Shown piece after piece: positions 5,801 through 23,403 of a stretch of 64,000 bases of DNA (the first letter of the stretch is position 1; each line of letters starts with the position of its first letter). The DNA is from Methylomusa anaerophila. GTDB taxonomy: Bacteria > Bacillota > Negativicutes > Sporomusales > Sporomusaceae. The stretch lies in assembly GCF_003966895.1 (NCBI RefSeq), contig NZ_AP018449.1, positions 255,424-319,423 of the forward strand, in the 5' to 3' direction. A program made the position numbers and the translations under genes. Below the pieces are notes generated by a model. The model did not search any database. It was not told the origin of the DNA and saw nothing but the letters and a program-made list of their open reading frames with translations.

Positions 5801-6089
5801 TTTGTTATCAGCCCCAATTATTTTATACATTTGTGTTATAATATAAATAGCAAAGGTGAATAGCATAAAGCTATTTGTTGCTACTAGCCCATAAATCATC
5901 ATTTCCGCCAAGAAGCCTATGATTTATGGATTTTTGTCGTATTTTTATTCTGAATTACTCTAAAGTCTCACTTTGGGGTGATAATCTTACAACCACTTTG
6001 CTATTTTATAACAATTGTAAAATTTAAAATTACATTCATATACGTCAAATTTTTGTATTGTTCTCTTCCGCTTCTTAAAAATTGTTGCT

Positions 6090-6158
6090 AAATTTAAAGA
6101 GGTCATATTCCATTTTTACAGGAATATGACCTCTTACCTTTTGCTAAGTCAGTCATTA
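6090..6158 (-). promoter_or_regulatory. Attenuator copy 1 (CUGA/AGG antiterminator-terminator), leader of the AT-rich cluster
   Basis: On the minus strand the outer arms TGACT and AGGTCA enclose the inner stem CTTA/TAAG. The AGGTCA arm is also the 5' arm of a perfect terminator hairpin (AGGTCATATTCC/GGAATATGACCT) followed by TTTAAATTT. The two structures exclude each other. It lies about 290 nt before the BtrH-like start. Confidence 0.8.
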
Positions 6159-6174
6159 AATACAAAATATTGTA

Positions 6175-8572: not shown

Positions 8573-8623
8573 AGAAAAATCTTCAGCCCTTCGTTTAGAA
8601 ATAAGTGCCAACTTATCACAGTC

Positions 8624-8689
8624 AATTTTTAAAGGCTGCATTCCGCAACCATGAAATGCAGCCTTCAGCTGGATTACTGGTCAGTTGCC
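8624..8689 (-). promoter_or_regulatory. Attenuator copy 2, leader of the CYTH gene
   Basis: Outer arms CAACT/AGGCTG (one A-C mismatch), inner stem CAG/CTG. The terminator GGCTGCATT/AATGCAGCC is followed by TTTAAAAATT. It follows the family layout CUGA-hairpin-AGG. Confidence 0.7.
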
Positions 8690-8704
8690 CGCAACTCTAA
8701 TTAG

Positions 8705-13385: not shown

Positions 13386-13411
13386 AATTTTTGATTTTCT
13401 CTCCTTCCAAA

Positions 13412-13479
13412 TAAAATAAAACAGGCTGTATTCCAAGTTAATGGAACACAGCCTCCAGCTTTTTGCCAGCCAGTTGTCC
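13412..13479 (-). promoter_or_regulatory. Attenuator copy 3, leader of the dms-like operon
   Basis: Outer arms ACAACT/AGGCTGT (one A-C mismatch); GG replaces GA in the internal loop; inner stem CTGGC/GCTGG. The terminator GGCTGTGTTCC/GGAATACAGCC follows. Nearly identical to copy 4 at 18.3 kb, including the promoter. Confidence 0.8.
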
Positions 13480-13557
13480 GTTAATTCAAACTCCATAATG
13501 CATTTAGAGGAAATAGCAGTATAATTTAGAACTTATTTCCGTATTAGCTTAGTCCAA

Positions 13558-16263: not shown

Positions 16264-17649
16264 TTAGAAGCGGTAATTGGTGATGAACTGATAGCCGTCT
16301 TTATAGTCGTCGAATGCAGCCCCCGACTGATTTTTATCATAGGGCTTGAGTTTGTAGTATCTGGCTTCAAAGTCGGTATTTTTGGCTATGGTAACATTGA
16401 CGCCGAGGCCAAAGCCTTTTGCACCGTCCCCGGCTGTATAAACGTTGGTGTCCCAGTTATAAGTGCCATTACTGCCGGCAATATTTAGGTTATGGCCGAA
16501 ATTCGCAGAGTCAATCGCCCAGTTGCCCAAGCGGAGATAGTCAAGGTACAGGAAATAACTGCCCGGCTTTTGGAGGTTTTGAGTCTTCCACTGCAATCTT
16601 GTAAAGAACCCGTTCTTTTCCGCATTGGAAGGAAGATTGGCGGCATTGTTTCTCACACCTTCAGCGATAATGGTGAACTGACCGGTTCTAAAGGTTGTGC
16701 CGTAAGCCAACTGTTTGAACTTGTAACCGGTTTGTTCAGGCTGGAGGGCATTCAGGTAGCCGAGAGTTACATTGGCATTTTTATCAAATTGGTATTTTAG
16801 GCTGGCCAAAGTCACATTGACGCTGGTAAAAGCTGAACCAGTATTGCCAAGAGAATTTTTCCAGTTGCTGGTTAAATCGGCGTAACCGGCAGATAAACCG
16901 AATTTGCCAAATTTCTGGCTGATGTAGAAACCGTCAATTGCGCCAGTCCCCCACAGCAGTTGGTTTTGACCAAGGGAGGCGGCAGAGGAGAACGGGATAA
17001 AGCGACCTACCTGTACGGTGGTATCGCCTCTATTCCATTCAAATTCAGCCCGATCAACCGATACCGGATCGGTACCGGAAGTTTTTATGCCTGCGTTAAC
17101 AGCGCGATTATTGCTTCGGTTTGAGGCCTCCAGCCGGCCCAAAAAATTCAGATTATCGGCCACGTTTGCGGTCAGGTTCACACGGATCCGCTCCTCAAAA
17201 CGGGTCGGAGCAGATTTGCTGGTATTATTAGCTGCTAGCCCCCAGTTATTTTGATAACGAATACGGGCGTCACCGGTGAATTTGATGGAAGAAGCATTCT
17301 TCTCCAGGTTGGCGACGCGAACTCCCAAATTGTTCAGTTCGGTAGCAAATTCTGCTTGAAGTTTATCCAAAGCAGCCTTGGTTTCAGCGTCGGCTTTTTC
17401 CGAGTTAGCCAAAGCTTTAGCGACGATAGTAGCAATTTCGTAACGGGTAAGGGCTCTGTCGCCTTTGTAGGTGCCATCGCCATAGCCGCTGACTAAGCCG
17501 GCTTTAACCAGTTTGTTAACAGCGTCATAGGCCCAGTGCTGGGCGGGAACGTCCACGAAAGGATTGGCGGGAGCAGCCAGCGTGGTGCCGACAACGCTCA
17601 GACTCAACGCGGCTGCAAGAGCTAAAACAAAATTCTTTTTCTTTTTCAT
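16264..17649 (-). CDS. SLH-domain porin (OmpM-like) of a diderm Firmicute
   Basis: A 461-residue outer-membrane protein. A Sec signal (residues 1-25) is followed by one S-layer-homology domain (NPFVDVPAQHWAYDAVNKL, then ALTRYEIATIVAKAL), which tethers the outer membrane to pyruvylated or polyamine-modified peptidoglycan in Negativicutes. Next come a short coiled-coil linker and a C-terminal beta-barrel rich in alternating aromatic strands ending in FITNYRF, with a terminal Phe. RBS AAGGGGG. It is the clearest taxonomic marker in the window. Its leader is unusually long, with an attenuator and two copies of a structured repeat. Confidence 0.9.
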   Translation of the reverse strand: MKKKKNFVLALAAALSLSVVGTTLAAPANPFVDVPAQHWAYDAVNKLVKAGLVSGYGDGTYKGDRALTRYEIATIVAKALANSEKADAETKAALDKLQAEFATELNNLGVRVANLEKNASSIKFTGDARIRYQNNWGLAANNTSKSAPTRFEERIRVNLTANVADNLNFLGRLEASNRSNNRAVNAGIKTSGTDPVSVDRAEFEWNRGDTTVQVGRFIPFSSAASLGQNQLLWGTGAIDGFYISQKFGKFGLSAGYADLTSNWKNSLGNTGSAFTSVNVTLASLKYQFDKNANVTLGYLNALQPEQTGYKFKQLAYGTTFRTGQFTIIAEGVRNNAANLPSNAEKNGFFTRLQWKTQNLQKPGSYFLYLDYLRLGNWAIDSANFGHNLNIAGSNGTYNWDTNVYTAGDGAKGFGLGVNVTIAKNTDFEARYYKLKPYDKNQSGAAFDDYKDGYQFITNYRF

Positions 17650-17932
17650 TTTTTATTCCCCCTTAAAAATATGTAAGATTTCAGATACCAGTTAAGCAGT
17701 TTAAGAGGGTAATGCCTATTGAGCGTCCAGGTTTTCCTCAATAAATATATACCCTTTTTTTGCTCAACCTATCTTACCGCCGACCAAGGAGCCGCAATAA
17801 CAGCATCCTCCCCCCCTTTCTTATTCAGCCTTGGTTTTTTTGGCGAAAGACCGCATAGTTTAGGCTAAGTAGAAATGAAAAACTATCATGAATCTATGTC
17901 ACATTTTGTAAATTAATCTAAAGATAAAAATA

Positions 17933-18067
17933 ACTCCCCTTGCCAAAACCTTGCATGAGGAGGTTAAACGGTGCTATACTTATAGCAAGGTAGACCTCTT
18001 CTCTGAGGTTTGCTGGGCAGGAAGTCGCTCAACTCTTGGTCGGGGCGGGCGGCTTCCTTTTATTCCG
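17933..18067 (-). ncRNA. Structured-RNA candidate, tandem repeat copy 1 (strand uncertain)
   Basis: About 135 bp, closely similar to the copy at 18109. Minus-strand reading: stem GGAAG/CTTCC, a helix AGCAA/TTGCT enclosing CCTC/GAGG, a hairpin GCTAT/ATAGC, then a terminator-like CTCC/GGAG pair and TTATTTTTATC. On the plus strand the GGAAGTCG/CGGCTTCC stem is followed by TTTTATT, so the other orientation is possible. I cannot assign it to a known class. Confidence 0.5.
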
Positions 18068-18108
18068 GCGAAAGTATTCCAGATAATTCCAGGTATATAA
18101 TAAAAAAA

Positions 18109-18244
18109 TACCTCCGTCATGCCAAACCTTGCATGCGGAGGTTAAACGATGCTATACACATAGCAAAGTAGACCTCTTCATGAGGTTTGCTGGGCAGGAA
18201 ATCGCTCAACTCTTGGTCGGGGCGGCGGCTTCCTTTTATTCCGG
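18109..18244 (-). ncRNA. Structured-RNA candidate, tandem repeat copy 2 (strand uncertain)
   Basis: Second copy. Differences from copy 1 cluster in loops (GTGT for AAGT in the GCTAT/ATAGC hairpin; ATGAA for AGAGAA), while stems are kept. Its minus-strand terminator CCTCCG/CGGAGG ends in TATTTTTTTATT. It lies between attenuator copy 4 and copy 1 of the repeat, in the porin leader. Confidence 0.5.
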
Positions 18245-18260
18245 GTTGAAATTTCTTTGA

Positions 18261-18328
18261 TAAAAATAAGAGGCCGTATTCCAAGTTGATGGAACACAGC
18301 CTCCAGCTTTTAGCCAGCCAGTTGTCCT
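18261..18328 (-). promoter_or_regulatory. Attenuator copy 4, start of the porin leader
   Basis: Outer arms ACAACT/AGGCTGT, GG in place of GA, inner stem CTGGCT/AGCTGG, then a terminator with arms GGCTGTGTTCC and GGAATACGGCC and a short T-rich tail. The next minus-strand features are the two tandem repeats and the porin. Confidence 0.75.
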
Positions 18329-18361
18329 TTGTTAAACAATTTGTTAATTAAGGTCAAAAAG

Positions 18362-18459: not shown

Positions 18460-19338
18460 TTATAACGCAGCGGATGAAGATATGGATTCGGCTATACTGG
18501 AATCTGCCGGCTTGGCCTTCTTTTCCTGGGATTGCTCATTCTGCAGCAACTCCCAAACCTTATGCCGTATCCAGCCGAACTCGGCTGACGAACGGATGCC
18601 GTCGCGGGGCCTGGGCAGATTAATGGTGACTATTTCCTTAATGGTGCCGGGATGGGCGGTCATGACCGCGACCCGGTCGGCCAAAAACACGGCTTCGTCT
18701 ATTCCGTGGGTAACGAAAACAATGGTCTTCTTAGTCTTTTCCCAAATACGGAGCAACTCTTCCTGCAAGGTCTCTCTGGTCTGGGCGTCCACGGCCGCAA
18801 ACGGTTCATCCATCAGCAGGACTTCCGGATCATAGGCCAAGGCCCGGGCAATGGCCACCCGTTGTTTCATACCGCCCGACAACTCGTGGGGATAACGGTC
18901 TTCAAAGTTTTTCAACCCCACCAGTTCAATGTACCGCTGACTAATTTCCTTTCTCTCTTTGGAAGGAACTTTTTTGATTTCAAGACCAAACTCCACGTTT
19001 TTTCGTACTGTACGCCACGGAAACAAAGCGTAGCCTTGCAATACAATTCCTCTGTCCAGAGCCGGACCGGTGATTTTTTTGCCATCCATAAATATTTCGC
19101 CGGAACTAGGGCGCGCCAAACCGGCAATCATATCCAGAAAAGTGGATTTGCCGCAACCGCTTGGTCCGACGATTGCCAGAAATTCACCTGGCTTTACGGT
19201 GAGGTCTAATTGCTTGATAGCCTCAAATTCAGTGGGTTTGTCATCACCATTACGTTTGATCTGAAACACCCTGCGAATATTACGGGCAACAATTTTGGCG
19301 TCTGTTATCGCCAAAGGCCCTGTTTGACTGACCGACAT
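18460..19338 (-). CDS. ABC transporter ATPase, nitrate/sulfonate/taurine type (SsuB/TauB-like)
   Basis: A 292-residue ATPase. Walker A is GPSGCGKST, the signature is [15 protein letters not shown], and Walker B is [12 protein letters not shown] followed by the switch VTHGIDEAV. The sequence groups with SsuB/TauB/NrtD. A Lys/Ser-rich tail of about 20 residues is extra. It is the last gene of the UroD-NifK-NifD-like operon (57 nt after the NifD-like gene), without its own permease. It may energise one of the orphan SsuC-like permeases in this window, such as that at 34.2 or 52.5 kb. Confidence 0.85.
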
Positions 19339-19395
19339 CTACCTCAACTCCCTTCTTTGCTAATAGGACGAAACATATGATGATTTTGGCCAAAA

Positions 19396-20913
19396 CTATG
19401 CCCGTATCTGCAGATCTCCTTCGTCAATGTAGGAAAATGCATCTTTCTTATACCAGTTGTCAAAATAGGGCAGCTGACTGTTGGCGCCTAAGCTACGGTT
19501 AAAAGAGGGGTTTTTGAGTATCCTGGCCACCCGTCTGGCAAATTCATAAATACCGGCGTAGCCCAGGAACAACTGGCTCTGATGAAATAAAGGCGCACAA
19601 GGAATCCCCTGCTTGGCCGCCCAGACATTGCCGCCCACATGACCGACAAATAGGTCGGGCTTTAATTTGGCAATAAGGTTTGCCTGTTCAAAAGGCTGTC
19701 CGGTGGCAACATTAAACGTTGCTTGCTCGATGGCTGCCTGCTCATCCAGCATTTCGTCACCAAACTGGTCGTAATGGTACGCCCTGAGTCCTACCACTTC
19801 AAACCCCAGATAAGTCAGCAGCTCGGCATTGGCGATAACGCGGATCTCCCCGCCGCCGATCAAGGCGCGTTTCCCTTTGAATATTTCCCGGAAGGGGGCC
19901 AGCCCTTCTTCCAGAAGTTTTACTTCCTGGTCAATGAATTGCTGCGCTTGCTTCTCAATGTCAAAAAATTTGGCTATATCCAACAGCCAGCGATTGGTGT
20001 ATTTTACTCCAATCGGGATGGTGCGAAGAATAAACGGAATGTTGAATAAAGTTTTCAGATGTTCGGAAAAGTAATCGTCATGAGTAGCGCAAATACTTAC
20101 GTTAAGGGCAGACTCCGTAGCTTTTTGGAAGTCCTCGGGATGAGCATAGCAAGGCAGTATATTCAAATTCAAATCCAGCGCTTTCAGCAAGCGGACCAGT
20201 TCGTATTCGTCAATTCGGCTCATGGACGAAACATTCAACACATTGATCGTACGGCTGGCCCGGTATTTTTCCTGTAAAATTTCAAACTCATCTCTTGTAT
20301 CCTGCACTTGGGCCGGCTCGGTTGTAATCAAACTGCGCAATATGCCGTGGTATACGGCGTCATAGGCGGTTGCCGCGATTTTGGTTTTGAACCCTTCGCA
20401 GTGCACCGGTACAATTTTGGCCTCTACTTCTTTTTGCGCCTGCTCCACCACGCTGTCCACATCATCGCCGATAATAGCCGGTACACAACTGTTGACAATG
20501 ACGATGGCGCTGGGACGGAATTCCTTATCGGCATAAAGAATAGCTTCCCGCAAATTGTTTTCCCCGCCGTTGATAACTTCATTTTCACCCAAATTGGTGT
20601 TGACCCACAAGAGGCCGCGGGAAGTGCTGTCCCTGAGTTGTTTGAAGTTTTTATTGACCCCGGCCTGGGCCAGACTGCCGCCGGCGCAGCCAATGGGTCC
20701 ATGGACGATAACCACGATATCACGGATGGTATTTATAATGGCCAAACTTAAGTTTAACTGACATATCTGGGTCTGGGCAAATTTTCTGTCGATGCCGTTC
20801 AGGCAGCCCTTTCTTCCTTTATCCACCAGGCTGCAGCAGGAGCCGCCATAAGCGCTGCAGGCTTTCAACCTGTCTTCCCGCACCGGCGGCGCTTTTTCTC
20901 TAATGTAATCCAT
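19396..20913 (-). CDS. Nitrogenase component 1-type protein, NifD-like (alpha), pair A
   Basis: 505 residues. It aligns in pattern with nitrogenase alpha subunits: HGPIGCAGG (P-cluster Cys88 region), VIVNSCVPAIIGDDVD (Cys154 region), VPVHCEGFKTKIA, and SICATHDDYFSEHL at the place of the cofactor-ligating Cys275. Several extra Cys lie near residues 18-50 (CSAYGGSCC). The His442 region is altered (LFHQSQLFLGYAG). It is not classical NifD: flanking loops differ and there is no NifE/NifN set. It follows the NifK-like gene, an inverted order, so both encode one heteromeric reductase. Likely substrate class by context: organosulfur; unproven. Confidence 0.8.
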   Translation of the reverse strand: MDYIREKAPPVREDRLKACSAYGGSCCSLVDKGRKGCLNGIDRKFAQTQICQLNLSLAIINTIRDIVVIVHGPIGCAGGSLAQAGVNKNFKQLRDSTSRGLLWVNTNLGENEVINGGENNLREAILYADKEFRPSAIVIVNSCVPAIIGDDVDSVVEQAQKEVEAKIVPVHCEGFKTKIAATAYDAVYHGILRSLITTEPAQVQDTRDEFEILQEKYRASRTINVLNVSSMSRIDEYELVRLLKALDLNLNILPCYAHPEDFQKATESALNVSICATHDDYFSEHLKTLFNIPFILRTIPIGVKYTNRWLLDIAKFFDIEKQAQQFIDQEVKLLEEGLAPFREIFKGKRALIGGGEIRVIANAELLTYLGFEVVGLRAYHYDQFGDEMLDEQAAIEQATFNVATGQPFEQANLIAKLKPDLFVGHVGGNVWAAKQGIPCAPLFHQSQLFLGYAGIYEFARRVARILKNPSFNRSLGANSQLPYFDNWYKKDAFSYIDEGDLQIRA

Positions 20914-20934
20914 TTAATATTTCCCCCCTTGTTT

Positions 20935-22275
20935 TTATCTGCTCCCTACTAAAAGTCCCAGGGCATCTTCTACCAATCGCAGGGCGCCGCTGTACCCTGC
21001 ATACGCCCGGTCAAGCACAATCCGGTTGGAAATGGGATAGGACACGCTCAAATGAGGAGCGCCAATGGCTTCGGCGAAGTCCCGGTCCAGACTGCTGCCG
21101 AAAACAAAGGCCGGACTGAATGAATTGTAATAGCGGGCGTTATTATTGCGCGGCCATACGGAATTCAAATGTTTATGGACATTGGTTGTGTCGGTGTCAA
21201 ACACCACCTTGGGCCGGATGCCGGAAGCAAAGTCGTTGAACCGGCTGACCACCAGCCGCTGCTCTTCCTCGCTAAGAACATCGGTAATGACCACCAATTC
21301 CGGCAGCCATCCCAGATCATCGGCCAGAAATTTTGCCAATGGCTGGGCATAATTGGCGTCGGCTACCACTACGCAATAGCGCTGTAAATCCAAATCATTG
21401 TAGACATCGCCCAGTCGTTCCACATAACCGTAATAGCGGGCTTTTTCGTCGGCAACCACCTTATCGACAAATTTTCGTTCAATCCCGAGGGCTGCTCCCA
21501 CTTGGTGCAAAAATTGTTCCGTGCCGGCAGGGCCGATGGGCAGCGGTACGACGATATACGGCACGCCGTGAGTTTCCTCGAAAATTTTGGCCGGCTCAAT
21601 CCCATACACATCCGACACCACGATATTCAAACCGGCTGCCGCCGATTTTTTCAGATTCTCAATGGTTTCTCCTTCGCCAAAGAAGGTGTTGACTTTATAT
21701 CCCAATTTATTAATTAATGCTTTCAGTACGTTTAAATTTCCCTTCCAAAATACATCCTGGATGGGAACAAGACCGAATAAATTGACCGTTTGTTTGTCTT
21801 TTACCGGGTTCTTCTCGACAAACTCGGCGAACAATTTGTTTAAAACAATATCATACCCTTTAAAGGAATTGCCCTTAAAGCCGCCTGTCTCGGCGGCAAA
21901 TACCGGTTTGCCCTGCTGCCGGAACCGGTTGGCTACAGAAATGGAGTCGTCGCCGATTATATCCACCATGCAGCCGGTAACTACAAAATACAAGTCACCG
22001 TCAACCACATCCAGCGTATTGGCTATTTGCTCCTCCAACCGGTCTTCGCCGCCAAATACGATGTCCTTTTCATGGACATTGGTGCTTGGCAGCGCTTGTC
22101 CGGCGCAATAGCCGCTGCCCAGATAACCTGTCGCACCATTGAGGGCATTGGCAAAGTTGCCGCCGCAGCCGGCCGACGCATGGAGAATGGATATTGCCCT
22201 GGGCAAGGCTTTCAGGGTCGCAACCGCACCTCCCATGGTGCAGAGATAACGTGGTCTTTCAACAAATCTGCTCAT
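20935..22275 (-). CDS. Nitrogenase component 1-type protein, NifK-like (beta), pair A
   Basis: 446 residues, shorter than true NifK (about 520). Three conserved P-cluster-type Cys are visible in PRYLCTMGGAVAT, ASAGCGGNFANA and VVTGCMVDIIGDD, and AETGGFKGNSFKGYD follows. The C-terminal LDRAYAGYSGALRLVEDAL is typical of the family. The start has GGAGG and lies 48 nt after the methyltransferase gene, with a triple 10-bp repeat between. It should pair with the NifD-like product encoded 21 nt downstream and take electrons from the NifH-like protein encoded at 39 kb. Confidence 0.8.
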   Translation of the reverse strand: MSRFVERPRYLCTMGGAVATLKALPRAISILHASAGCGGNFANALNGATGYLGSGYCAGQALPSTNVHEKDIVFGGEDRLEEQIANTLDVVDGDLYFVVTGCMVDIIGDDSISVANRFRQQGKPVFAAETGGFKGNSFKGYDIVLNKLFAEFVEKNPVKDKQTVNLFGLVPIQDVFWKGNLNVLKALINKLGYKVNTFFGEGETIENLKKSAAAGLNIVVSDVYGIEPAKIFEETHGVPYIVVPLPIGPAGTEQFLHQVGAALGIERKFVDKVVADEKARYYGYVERLGDVYNDLDLQRYCVVVADANYAQPLAKFLADDLGWLPELVVITDVLSEEEQRLVVSRFNDFASGIRPKVVFDTDTTNVHKHLNSVWPRNNNARYYNSFSPAFVFGSSLDRDFAEAIGAPHLSVSYPISNRIVLDRAYAGYSGALRLVEDALGLLVGSR

Positions 22276-22284
22276 TCATTTGCC

Positions 22285-22314
22285 TCCATGTAATTCCATG
22301 TAATTCCATGTAAT
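22285..22314 (-). repeat. Three tandem copies of a 10-bp unit before the NifK-like gene
   Basis: Plus strand TCCATGTAAT repeated three times without interruption. On the transcribed strand each copy reads ATTACATGGA, and the last one runs into the GGAGG ribosome site. It may be a slippage tract that alters translation or spacing. Confidence 0.8.
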
Positions 22315-22323
22315 ATCAAATCT

Positions 22324-23403
22324 TTAGTTCAATCTTTCAGGATCGATCGGATATCTGCCATACTCTCTTGCCGCCCGGAAGATGGCATGAATGTTCTCAA
22401 CCGGGGCGCCCAAAGGCATTCCGCAGCCAAGCGCCAGTATATAACCTTTCGGATTGTCATGCGCCTTGCGCAAACATTCCTTGGCGTCGCGGATCACGTC
22501 GTCCGGTGTTCCCAGATACATGGTCGCTGTCGGCTTGACATTCCCCAATATCGCCACCCGGCCACCGACTTCCTGTTTAGCGGCCGCCAAGTCGACGGTA
22601 TCATCCAGACTAAGGATGCCGGCCCCGGTATCGGCCATATCCTGCCAGATTTTTTTGGTGTTGCCGCAGATGTGCAGCGACGGGGCTTTGCCGGTTAATT
22701 CCGTAACGATCCTGGTCAAGTCGCGTAAATAAGGAAAAGCAAATTCGCGAAATTGTTTCGGGCTGATCAACGTGGCCGAAGCAGTAGGATCAGCTATATT
22801 TATTGTAGCGCCCAGTTTCGCTGCTTCTTTCACATAGACGACAGTACTATCCAAGGCAAACTTGAGCAACCGGTGGACAAACTTAGGATTGTGATAAAGG
22901 TCCCGCAGAAAGGCTTCTGTTCCCCGGATATTAGCGGCTGCGGTAAACGGTCCGCCAACGTTGCTAACCACCGGGACGCTTTCTCCCAAACGCTCACCCA
23001 AAATCTGAAGAGCGTTTAAGTGTACCGGCAGGCGCCCCCGGGTCCAGGGGTCGGGAATTTCAAGCCGGTCTAAATCGGTATATTGTCTTACTGCATGCTC
23101 GGTGATGTATGGCGAATTCTCCGCTTTTGGATATACAACCTTACTCCCGGCAGCCTCGGCAATTCCATGGAGTCCCGGGCCGGTGCCCACCGATTCGGCA
23201 CCGAACACCCGGTGGGCTTCAATTTGAGTCCGGGCTGTGTATTCAGCCGAGAAATAGCTTTCCCAATGATTAATTCCCGCCAGTTTCCCTGCTTGATGGC
23301 TGGCATTGATACTGCATGGCACCCTGTCATACGGCTTGCCGGTCAATACTGCTTCCAACCGCTCTCTCGGCGTCATTTCATCATGAAATTTTGCCGCACC
23401 CAC
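22324..23403 (-). CDS. UroD/MtaA-family corrinoid-dependent methyltransferase
   Basis: A 359-residue TIM-barrel protein of the uroporphyrinogen decarboxylase superfamily. LHICGNTKKIW provides the H-x-C zinc motif of methylcobamide:thiol methyltransferases (MtaA/MtbA), and LALGCGMPLGAPVENI supplies the second Cys. These are absent from true HemE, so methyl transfer to or from a thiol is likelier than decarboxylation. The start is GTG after AGGAGGAG. It is the first gene of the pair-A nitrogenase-like operon, behind two tandem attenuators, which links a methyl/thiol reaction to that reductase. Confidence 0.75.
   Translation of the reverse strand: MGAAKFHDEMTPRERLEAVLTGKPYDRVPCSINASHQAGKLAGINHWESYFSAEYTARTQIEAHRVFGAESVGTGPGLHGIAEAAGSKVVYPKAENSPYITEHAVRQYTDLDRLEIPDPWTRGRLPVHLNALQILGERLGESVPVVSNVGGPFTAAANIRGTEAFLRDLYHNPKFVHRLLKFALDSTVVYVKEAAKLGATINIADPTASATLISPKQFREFAFPYLRDLTRIVTELTGKAPSLHICGNTKKIWQDMADTGAGILSLDDTVDLAAAKQEVGGRVAILGNVKPTATMYLGTPDDVIRDAKECLRKAHDNPKGYILALGCGMPLGAPVENIHAIFRAAREYGRYPIDPERLN

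Follow-up and report, generated by a model that had tools for sequence, protein, structure and literature searches.

Two tandem elements in the leader of an SLH-domain porin gene of Methylomusa anaerophila are probable pT181-type countertranscript-driven attenuators

Introduction

Most known cases of transcription attenuation by antisense RNA concern the replication of plasmids (pT181, pIP501), with others from conjugation (pCF10) and a virulence plasmid (RnaG). In phages, the sar RNA of P22 and the c4 RNA of P1 are antisense RNAs that control antirepressor genes; their structures and hosts differ from those of the relatives described here. In pT181, an 87-nt antisense RNA (RNAI) acts on a leader in which stem-loop IV resembles an intrinsic terminator and a pre-emptor sequence pairs with the 5′ arm of that stem-loop (PMC5703833). 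This published anatomy fits, point by point, the predicted anatomy of an element that we describe here from the leader of a porin gene: an antisense RNA of ~80-87 nt with two hairpins including a terminator, a UUGG loop, a putative pre-emptor arm and a terminator-like attenuator (PMC5703833). In contrast to the pT181 system, which serves a plasmid replication gene, the present element is chromosomal, occurs as two serial copies, has a porin as its presumed target and carries an extended -10 promoter with TTGC.

Other described systems share part of this anatomy. RNAIII of pIP501 induces a terminator-like hairpin in the repR leader (PMC5703833), however, it serves plasmid copy control jointly with the CopR protein, and we liken it to our element by description. 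The RNAI of pSK41 is an antisense RNA of ~83 nt with two stem-loops that acts on a leader (PMC5703833), but it masks a ribosome site and thus affects translation; some phage relatives of our element are similar in this respect, whereas the porin-leader copies are not. In the Anti-Q/prgQ system of pCF10, an antisense RNA terminates the leader and controls conjugation, as would be expected for three relatives reported below (L044, L046 and L052) (PMC6540685). Unlike our locus, pCF10 uses the convergent prgX promoter and its target is plasmid-borne. RnaG of the Shigella plasmid pINV attenuates transcription of a surface-protein gene, icsA, by an antisense mechanism (PMC5394118); it is likened here by description, and in contrast to our element it is 450 nt long, plasmid-borne and present as a single copy. 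Finally, engineered tandem pT181 attenuators act as logic gates (PMC4878617). These are synthetic and receive independent antisense inputs, whereas the antisense sequences of the two natural copies are almost identical. Our literature search, with most subscription papers outside its coverage, returned no description of such an element on a porin or as a phage/ICE family.

Results and Discussion

A tandem repeat upstream of the porin gene

The window analysed here is a 64,000-bp stretch (C1:255424-319423) of the 4.78-Mb genome. A preliminary description of this DNA had proposed a tandem ~135-bp structured element, and our comparison bears this out: the second copy (18111-18246 of the window) is 90% identical to the first (17934-18068) across 140 positions (E 2.3e-46). 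We refer to these copies as the B element; their start-to-start spacing is 176-178 bp. The pair sits between the porin ORF and an ABC-ATPase ORF, 285-600 bp 5′ of the porin start codon and 3′ of the predicted porin promoter:

16264-17649, minus strand: SLH-domain outer-membrane porin, 461 aa, the presumed regulated gene (Pfam SLH, 4.6e-11)
17927-18068, either strand: B element copy 1, porin-proximal (repeat 17934-18068; covariance model R2, 143 bits)
18105-18246, either strand: B element copy 2, the upstream one on the porin leader (repeat 18111-18246; R2, 138 bits)
18390-18362, minus strand: predicted porin-leader promoter, TTGACA-17-TATAAT with TG ahead of the -10 (consensus scan, 12/12 matches)
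18460-19338, minus strand: ABC-ATPase ORF

Upstream of the porin, the minus-strand region 18460-23403 encodes a NitT/TauT-like ABC ATPase, two nitrogenase-like subunits and a uroporphyrinogen-decarboxylase-like protein. In Sporomusa, a nifB-like gene precedes the porin.

All four stems named in the preliminary description were found, and they fall on different RNAs. A predicted plus-strand RNA forms its two hairpins from CCTC/GAGG and GGAAG/CTTCC, and CCTCCG/CGGAGG is the attenuator stem of copy 2 on the minus strand. GCTAT/ATAGC overlaps the plus-strand -10 box; its hairpin therefore lies in the porin leader and is no part of the plus-strand RNA. The terminator-like ends claimed for both strands are indeed present on both. 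The view that stems are kept while loops differ holds only in part, however: in the two copies, as in many relatives, nothing is better conserved than the terminator loop CUCUUGGUCGGGG, and the stems vary by compensation.

Predicted transcripts of the plus strand

Based on promoter motif and structure, we infer that both copies give rise to an antisense transcript of ~78 nt with two hairpins, the second being an intrinsic terminator with the conserved loop:

17951-17980, plus strand: antisense promoter of copy 1, TTGCAT-N15-TGC-TATACT, extended -10 (shared motif spacing)
17986-18064, plus strand: predicted antisense RNA 1 with two hairpins, ~79 nt long, its terminator being GGAAGTCGC...GGCTTCCTTTTATT (folding energy -43.4 kcal/mol, z -5.8; sub-threshold match to Rfam ctRNA_pT181 at 17980-18069)
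18129-18158, plus strand: antisense promoter of copy 2, TTGCAT-N15-TGC-TATACA, extended -10 (shared motif spacing)
18164-18240, plus strand: predicted antisense RNA 2, ~77 nt, hairpin 1 and a terminator hairpin with a UUGG loop (fold -32.8 kcal/mol, z -3.6; covariation in 17 members)

The promoter motif, TTGC followed by TGC before a TATNNT-like -10 at fixed spacing, was seen in 10 of the 11 members first compared, despite differing surrounding sequence, and members on viral contigs were re-found by the promoter pattern alone. The antisense -10 of copy 2 (TATACA) is weak.

The folding energies are also strand-specific. Plus-strand folds of both copies were more stable than 200 of 200 shuffles (z -3.7 each), and the minus-strand folds were weaker against shuffles (z -1.5 and -2.7). 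With folding confined to the span between predicted start and terminator, the antisense strand had the lower free energy in 18 of 18 members, with a mean z of -4.2 vs -2.8 for the sense strand; in the two window copies, the values are -43.4 and -32.8 for the plus strand vs -20.9 and -18.2 kcal/mol for the minus strand. The antisense strand is the more stable because its G-U pairs turn into A-C mismatches in the sense hairpin. Attenuators of the pT181 type are known to need such an interior loop in the sense hairpin in order to function (PMC3753616, PMC4878617).

The antisense RNA structure covaries strongly across 17 members. In the alignment of these members to R2 (A7), 91.8% of 280 cells are standard pairs, both sides have changed in 12 of the 18 pairs and 32 cells hold double changes; none of 500 shuffles reached any of these measures, and while fitting the alignment to the model's structure favours such a result, the margin is wide. 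Sliding the partner by 1-3 columns reduced pairing to 44-68% and left at most 10 double-change cells. The kissing loop is UUGG in both window copies and UUNR or CUUG in most other members; a U-turn (YUNR) loop was not seen in member G003b.

The preliminary description could not match the element to a known riboswitch, and an Rfam scan of the whole window likewise returned no family at its gathering score. The top match over both predicted RNAs was ctRNA_pT181 (RF00242), which covered 17980-18069 and 18158-18245 at full model length with scores of 28.8 and 21.1 bits, far short of the gathering threshold of 56. No genome of the 250 scanned from the class had a ctRNA_pT181 match above the cut-off, and riboswitches and other Rfam classes gave only chance-level matches. 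In return, R2 finds the ctRNAs of pT181 and of an S. condimenti plasmid at 20 bits (E 2e-4 in 1.5 kb); the reference record among the compared sequences was NC_001393. The kissing loops can be aligned in the pT181 comparison (AACU-CUUGGUCGGGG vs AAACU-UUGGUCAGGG). UUGGCG-type loops, however, recur in unrelated antisense systems (PMC3753616), so the likeness of the loops may be convergent instead of a sign of common descent. With a sub-threshold score and possible convergence, we describe the element as one that would work like pT181 RNAI and keep it out of RF00242.

Alternative folds of the porin leader

Read on the minus strand, each copy presents in order a mirror hairpin, CAAACCU with GAGGU, a small AU-rich hairpin (the antisense -10 region) and a hairpin followed by a U-run. 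In both copies this last hairpin and its U-run lie downstream of the antisense target, as expected of an attenuator. The predicted features of the leader strand are:

18183-18189, minus strand: antiterminator arm of copy 2, CAAACCU, with its partner AGGUUUG in the attenuator loop (18123-18129) (compensatory pairing in relatives)
18100-18142, minus strand: attenuator 2, ACCTCCGCATGCAAGGTTTGGCATGACGGAGGT then ATTTTTTTAT (hairpin 18110-18142; mean pair probability 0.79 in the free leader and 0.99 once the target is blocked)
18006-18012, minus strand: antiterminator arm of copy 1, CAAACCU, with its partner AGGUUUUG in the attenuator (17944-17951) (used by the minimum-energy leader fold)
17925-17962, minus strand: attenuator 1, CTCCTCATGCAAGGTTTTGGCAAGGGGAG then TTATTTTTA (hairpin 17934-17962; mean pair probability 0.09 in the free leader and 0.90 once the target is blocked)

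The putative antiterminator pairing recurs with changed bases as CACCU/AGGUG in Sporomusa, AGCCCU/AGGGCU in the G023 prophage and CAACCCU/AGGGUUG in G055. With the antisense target blocked, the attenuator had a mean pair probability above 0.8 in 14 of 17 members, and in the free leader it was 0.2 or less in 11 of the 17; these are equilibrium values that ignore co-transcriptional kinetics. Besides the two window copies, ten of these members rose from 0.2 or less to 0.32-0.97. Blocking a 5′ part lifts any downstream hairpin somewhat, so this comparison is supportive and not decisive. The shift on blocking is clear in copy 1 and weaker in copy 2. Copy 2 favours its attenuator even when unblocked, which suggests that it might terminate constitutively. 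The stretch holding attenuator 1 was no more stable than its shuffles (z -0.57). Among the folded members, the attenuator is absent in G014 (L046) alone, where the antisense RNA is kept.

Distribution of the element

We searched for relatives with two covariance models, R1 (six close copies) and R2 (ten diverse copies), covering 380 class-level and 398 phylum-level genomes, and with the promoter pattern in IMG/VR. Eighteen members were examined closely and further ones were found across Bacillota and on viral contigs. Among the carriers of the element, Sporomusa silvacetica DSM 10669 and Sporomusa sp. KB1 are the nearest relatives. In G006, G011 and G004, one B copy lies in the leader of the same porin. 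Three other genomes of the family keep the order element A (a separate leader motif described below), B element and porin, with compensatory changes.

The relatives sit in gene leaders in the same orientation, upstream of porins, Rha genes, KilAC/Bro-N and P22_AR antirepressors and conjugation genes. Antirepressor genes are the commonest neighbour. The downstream genes outside the porin loci are:

G023, L012: Rha-type prophage gene
G055, L043: Bro-N/KilAC antirepressor
G127 (L044), G013 (L052): TrbJ/VirB5-VirB6-like conjugation operon
G014, L046: VirB2/VirB8-like conjugation operon
G106, L091: gene resembling a tyrosine recombinase, by eye (a Pfam scan of 110 aa gave no match)
L160, L166, L168, L180 (IMG/VR viral contigs): P22_AR_N, Phage_pRha, Bro-N and no assignment, respectively
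L199 (phylum level): metallopeptidase-like gene with an integrase-like gene nearby, judged by eye
L201 (phylum level): Bro-N-like antirepressor, judged by eye
L200, L202, L203, L205, L208: further phylum-level members, judged by eye

The viral contigs found by promoter pattern scored 4e-14 (L166), 5e-10 (L160) and 7e-7 (L168) with R2; the E-values of our models are rough. The members used to train R2 had been picked out by eye, and L091 and L097, which are weak, were accepted partly by inspection. The members upstream of phage antirepressor or Rha genes (L160, L166, L168, L012, L043 and L201) look like a general antisense control of antirepressors in Bacillota phages, with a role comparable to that of P22 sar and P1 c4, and L044, L052 and L046 suggest that integrated elements control their transfer genes by antisense attenuation. 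The copies in our window are chromosomal, duplicated and placed on a porin, and were probably domesticated from mobile elements.

Several searches gave no further relatives. Neither the plasmids of PLSDB nor the phages of INPHARED gave a BLASTN match to the element, and the phage relatives found nothing relevant in INPHARED (a Caulobacter phage match is a 28-nt stretch). The exact core pattern had no match in IMG/VR, and in genome contigs it occurred only at two Sporomusa loci. A stricter promoter-plus-attenuator pattern gave a single chance match in IMG/VR, and the 37 matches to the promoter pattern there were mostly due to chance, with four retained after inspection and covariance-model scoring. 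Weak R1/R2 matches were set aside as plain terminators or hairpins on inspection (L045, L047-L050, L055, L063, L088-L090, L092, L093, L204, L206 and L207). A weak look-alike in G249 (L054, 1480-1600), an antisense RNA gene beside a small holin-like toxin ORF, was not counted. This locus lies upstream of another SLH porin and is possibly a type I toxin-antitoxin pair.

Proposed mode of action

The repeat, the conserved promoter motif, the covarying antisense structure, the conserved positions and the alternative folds are all observed features. Based on them, we think it likely that the region comprises two tandem pT181-type countertranscript-driven attenuators in the leader of the SLH porin gene, with termination and the effect on the porin predicted from the anatomy. 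The preliminary description had offered either a tandem cis-regulatory porin leader or a pair of plus-strand small RNAs; the evidence favours both combined, that is, antisense RNAs acting on complementary attenuators.

Polymerase starting at the predicted promoter (18390-18362, minus strand) would produce a porin leader of ~700 nt. In each B copy, the leader would first present the hairpin that is mirrored by the ~78-nt antisense RNA. When antisense RNA is absent, the CAAACCU arm, with GAGGU, would pair with part of the next hairpin, namely its loop and 5′ arm, and this antiterminator would let transcription proceed. When present, the antisense RNA would kiss the leader via its UUGG loop, zip up and cover the antiterminator arm, upon which the attenuator hairpin and its U-run could form and transcription would end before the porin. 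Two serial copies would multiply repression as consecutive gates with a common input. Since loops and stems are nearly identical, each antisense RNA should act on both copies, and the predicted cross-duplex energies (-154 and -147 kcal/mol) are near those of the cognate pairs (-175 and -164 kcal/mol). The input may vary through antisense promoter strength, leader transcription rate or a sponge; a fixed antisense supply combined with a varying leader transcription rate would set a threshold.

An antisense RNA could instead act solely by masking a ribosome site or by RNase III cleavage, with no termination. In most mobile-element relatives, the GGAGG 3′ arm closely precedes an ATG, with or without a U-run, so the hairpin there can also hide the ribosome site; in vL160, vL168, vL180 and G023b it lies right before the ATG and lacks the U-run, as in pSK41 (PMC5703833). 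In Sporomusa, GGAGG-U8-ATG starts a vestigial frame of six codons, perhaps the remains of a start site formerly hidden by the hairpin. Such frames (e.g. MLIKVS) follow the attenuator in the Sporomusa porin leaders (L010, 1638-1665; L009; L011) and there are none in the window. Both hairpins of our locus, in contrast, are followed by a U-run, and their distances to the porin start, ~285 and ~460 bp, make masking of its ribosome site impossible. As no ATG follows the hairpin and the porin start is ~285 bp further on, only transcription attenuation makes sense here, and we regard an exclusively translational or processing mechanism as distinctly unlikely.

By its promoter, structure and terminator, the plus strand could encode free-standing small RNAs, and its products might act in trans on other mRNAs, the overlap with the porin leader being incidental. 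A trans-acting RNA, however, needs none of the features that are conserved across unrelated host genes, namely the position and orientation relative to the downstream gene, the attenuator and the antiterminator arms, and this reading has hardly any probability in our view. Conservation also speaks against constitutive bidirectional terminators, duplicated by chance, that would insulate the porin from neighbouring transcription. Such a role would agree with terminator-like ends on both strands and with the stability of the unblocked attenuator of copy 2, but insulators need no pair of antisense hairpins, extended -10 or mutually exclusive pairing conserved over large divergence, and the element stands between the predicted porin promoter and the gene; we consider it very unlikely. 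We give a similarly small chance to a non-functional prophage or conjugative-element remnant that came to lie in the porin leader by chance. Relatives are mostly found in mobile elements and a truncated copy exists at C1:1997.6 kb (L003), yet the order of element A, B element and porin is kept with compensatory changes in the three other genomes of the family, and the element has been duplicated in the window lineage.

If tandem countertranscript-driven attenuation of the porin is true, then, given the relatives in phages and transfer elements of Bacillota, a widespread control principle of mobile elements has been taken over by the cell, and the locus is a natural counterpart of the tandem attenuators built by synthetic biologists. 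It could also explain how the cell adjusts the output of a major surface channel with no protein regulator involved.

A wider reading concerns exchange of antisense RNAs between loci. The truncated third copy (L003, 1430-1580) combines a strong promoter and element A with the kissing hairpin known from the porin leader and with a terminator, CCTCATGCAAGAGGATTTTTT, and no antisense promoter was found in it. Its predicted duplexes with the two antisense RNAs reach -112 and -106 kcal/mol, and on this modelling its transcript could sequester both as a sponge. Prophages carry nearly the same kissing hairpin (as in G023 and L012). One may imagine a Bacillota-wide family of mobile-element attenuators on antirepressor, Rha, conjugation and possibly integration genes, domesticated in Sporomusaceae to silence a porin, whose RNAs cross-talk among the tandem copies, the L003 sponge and prophages. 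RNAs acting across loci would then couple mobile-element and porin expression. We hold this broader scheme to be unlikely.

A second motif in the porin leader

Between the porin promoter and B copy 2 lies element A, which occupies the same place in three genomes of the Sporomusa family. It consists of CAACUGACUAGU-N-ACUAGAGGCUGUAUUCC-loop-GGAAUGCAGCCUUUUU just 3′ of strong TTGACA-TATAAT promoters, had no Rfam match and is a candidate for a new attenuator or riboswitch class. There are ~20 copies in the genome, clustered at 157-325 kb on one strand, and others in further Negativicutes:

18253-18332, minus strand: element A of the porin leader, GGACAACTGGCTGGCTAAAAGCTGGAGGCTGT...ACGGCCTC then a T-run, terminator-like, read as a first attenuator (covariance model R3, 4.5e-25, with this sequence in the R3 training set)
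13405-13484, 8615-8695 and 6082-6163, minus strand: other copies in the window
C1:210.6, 216.3, 219.3-219.5 (tandem pair), 224.8, 230.3, 233.5 and 234.6 kb, among others: copies elsewhere
L099-L111 and L129-L145: element A loci

A promoter with at least 10 of 12 matches was present within 120 bp in 22 of 26 cases, vs 6% of control windows. Judged by eye, the genes that follow element A include a molybdoenzyme operon and genes for nitrogenase-like proteins, NitT/TauT-type ABC substrate-binding proteins, flavin reductase and PNPOx-like proteins, HlyD and MFS proteins, and a porin.
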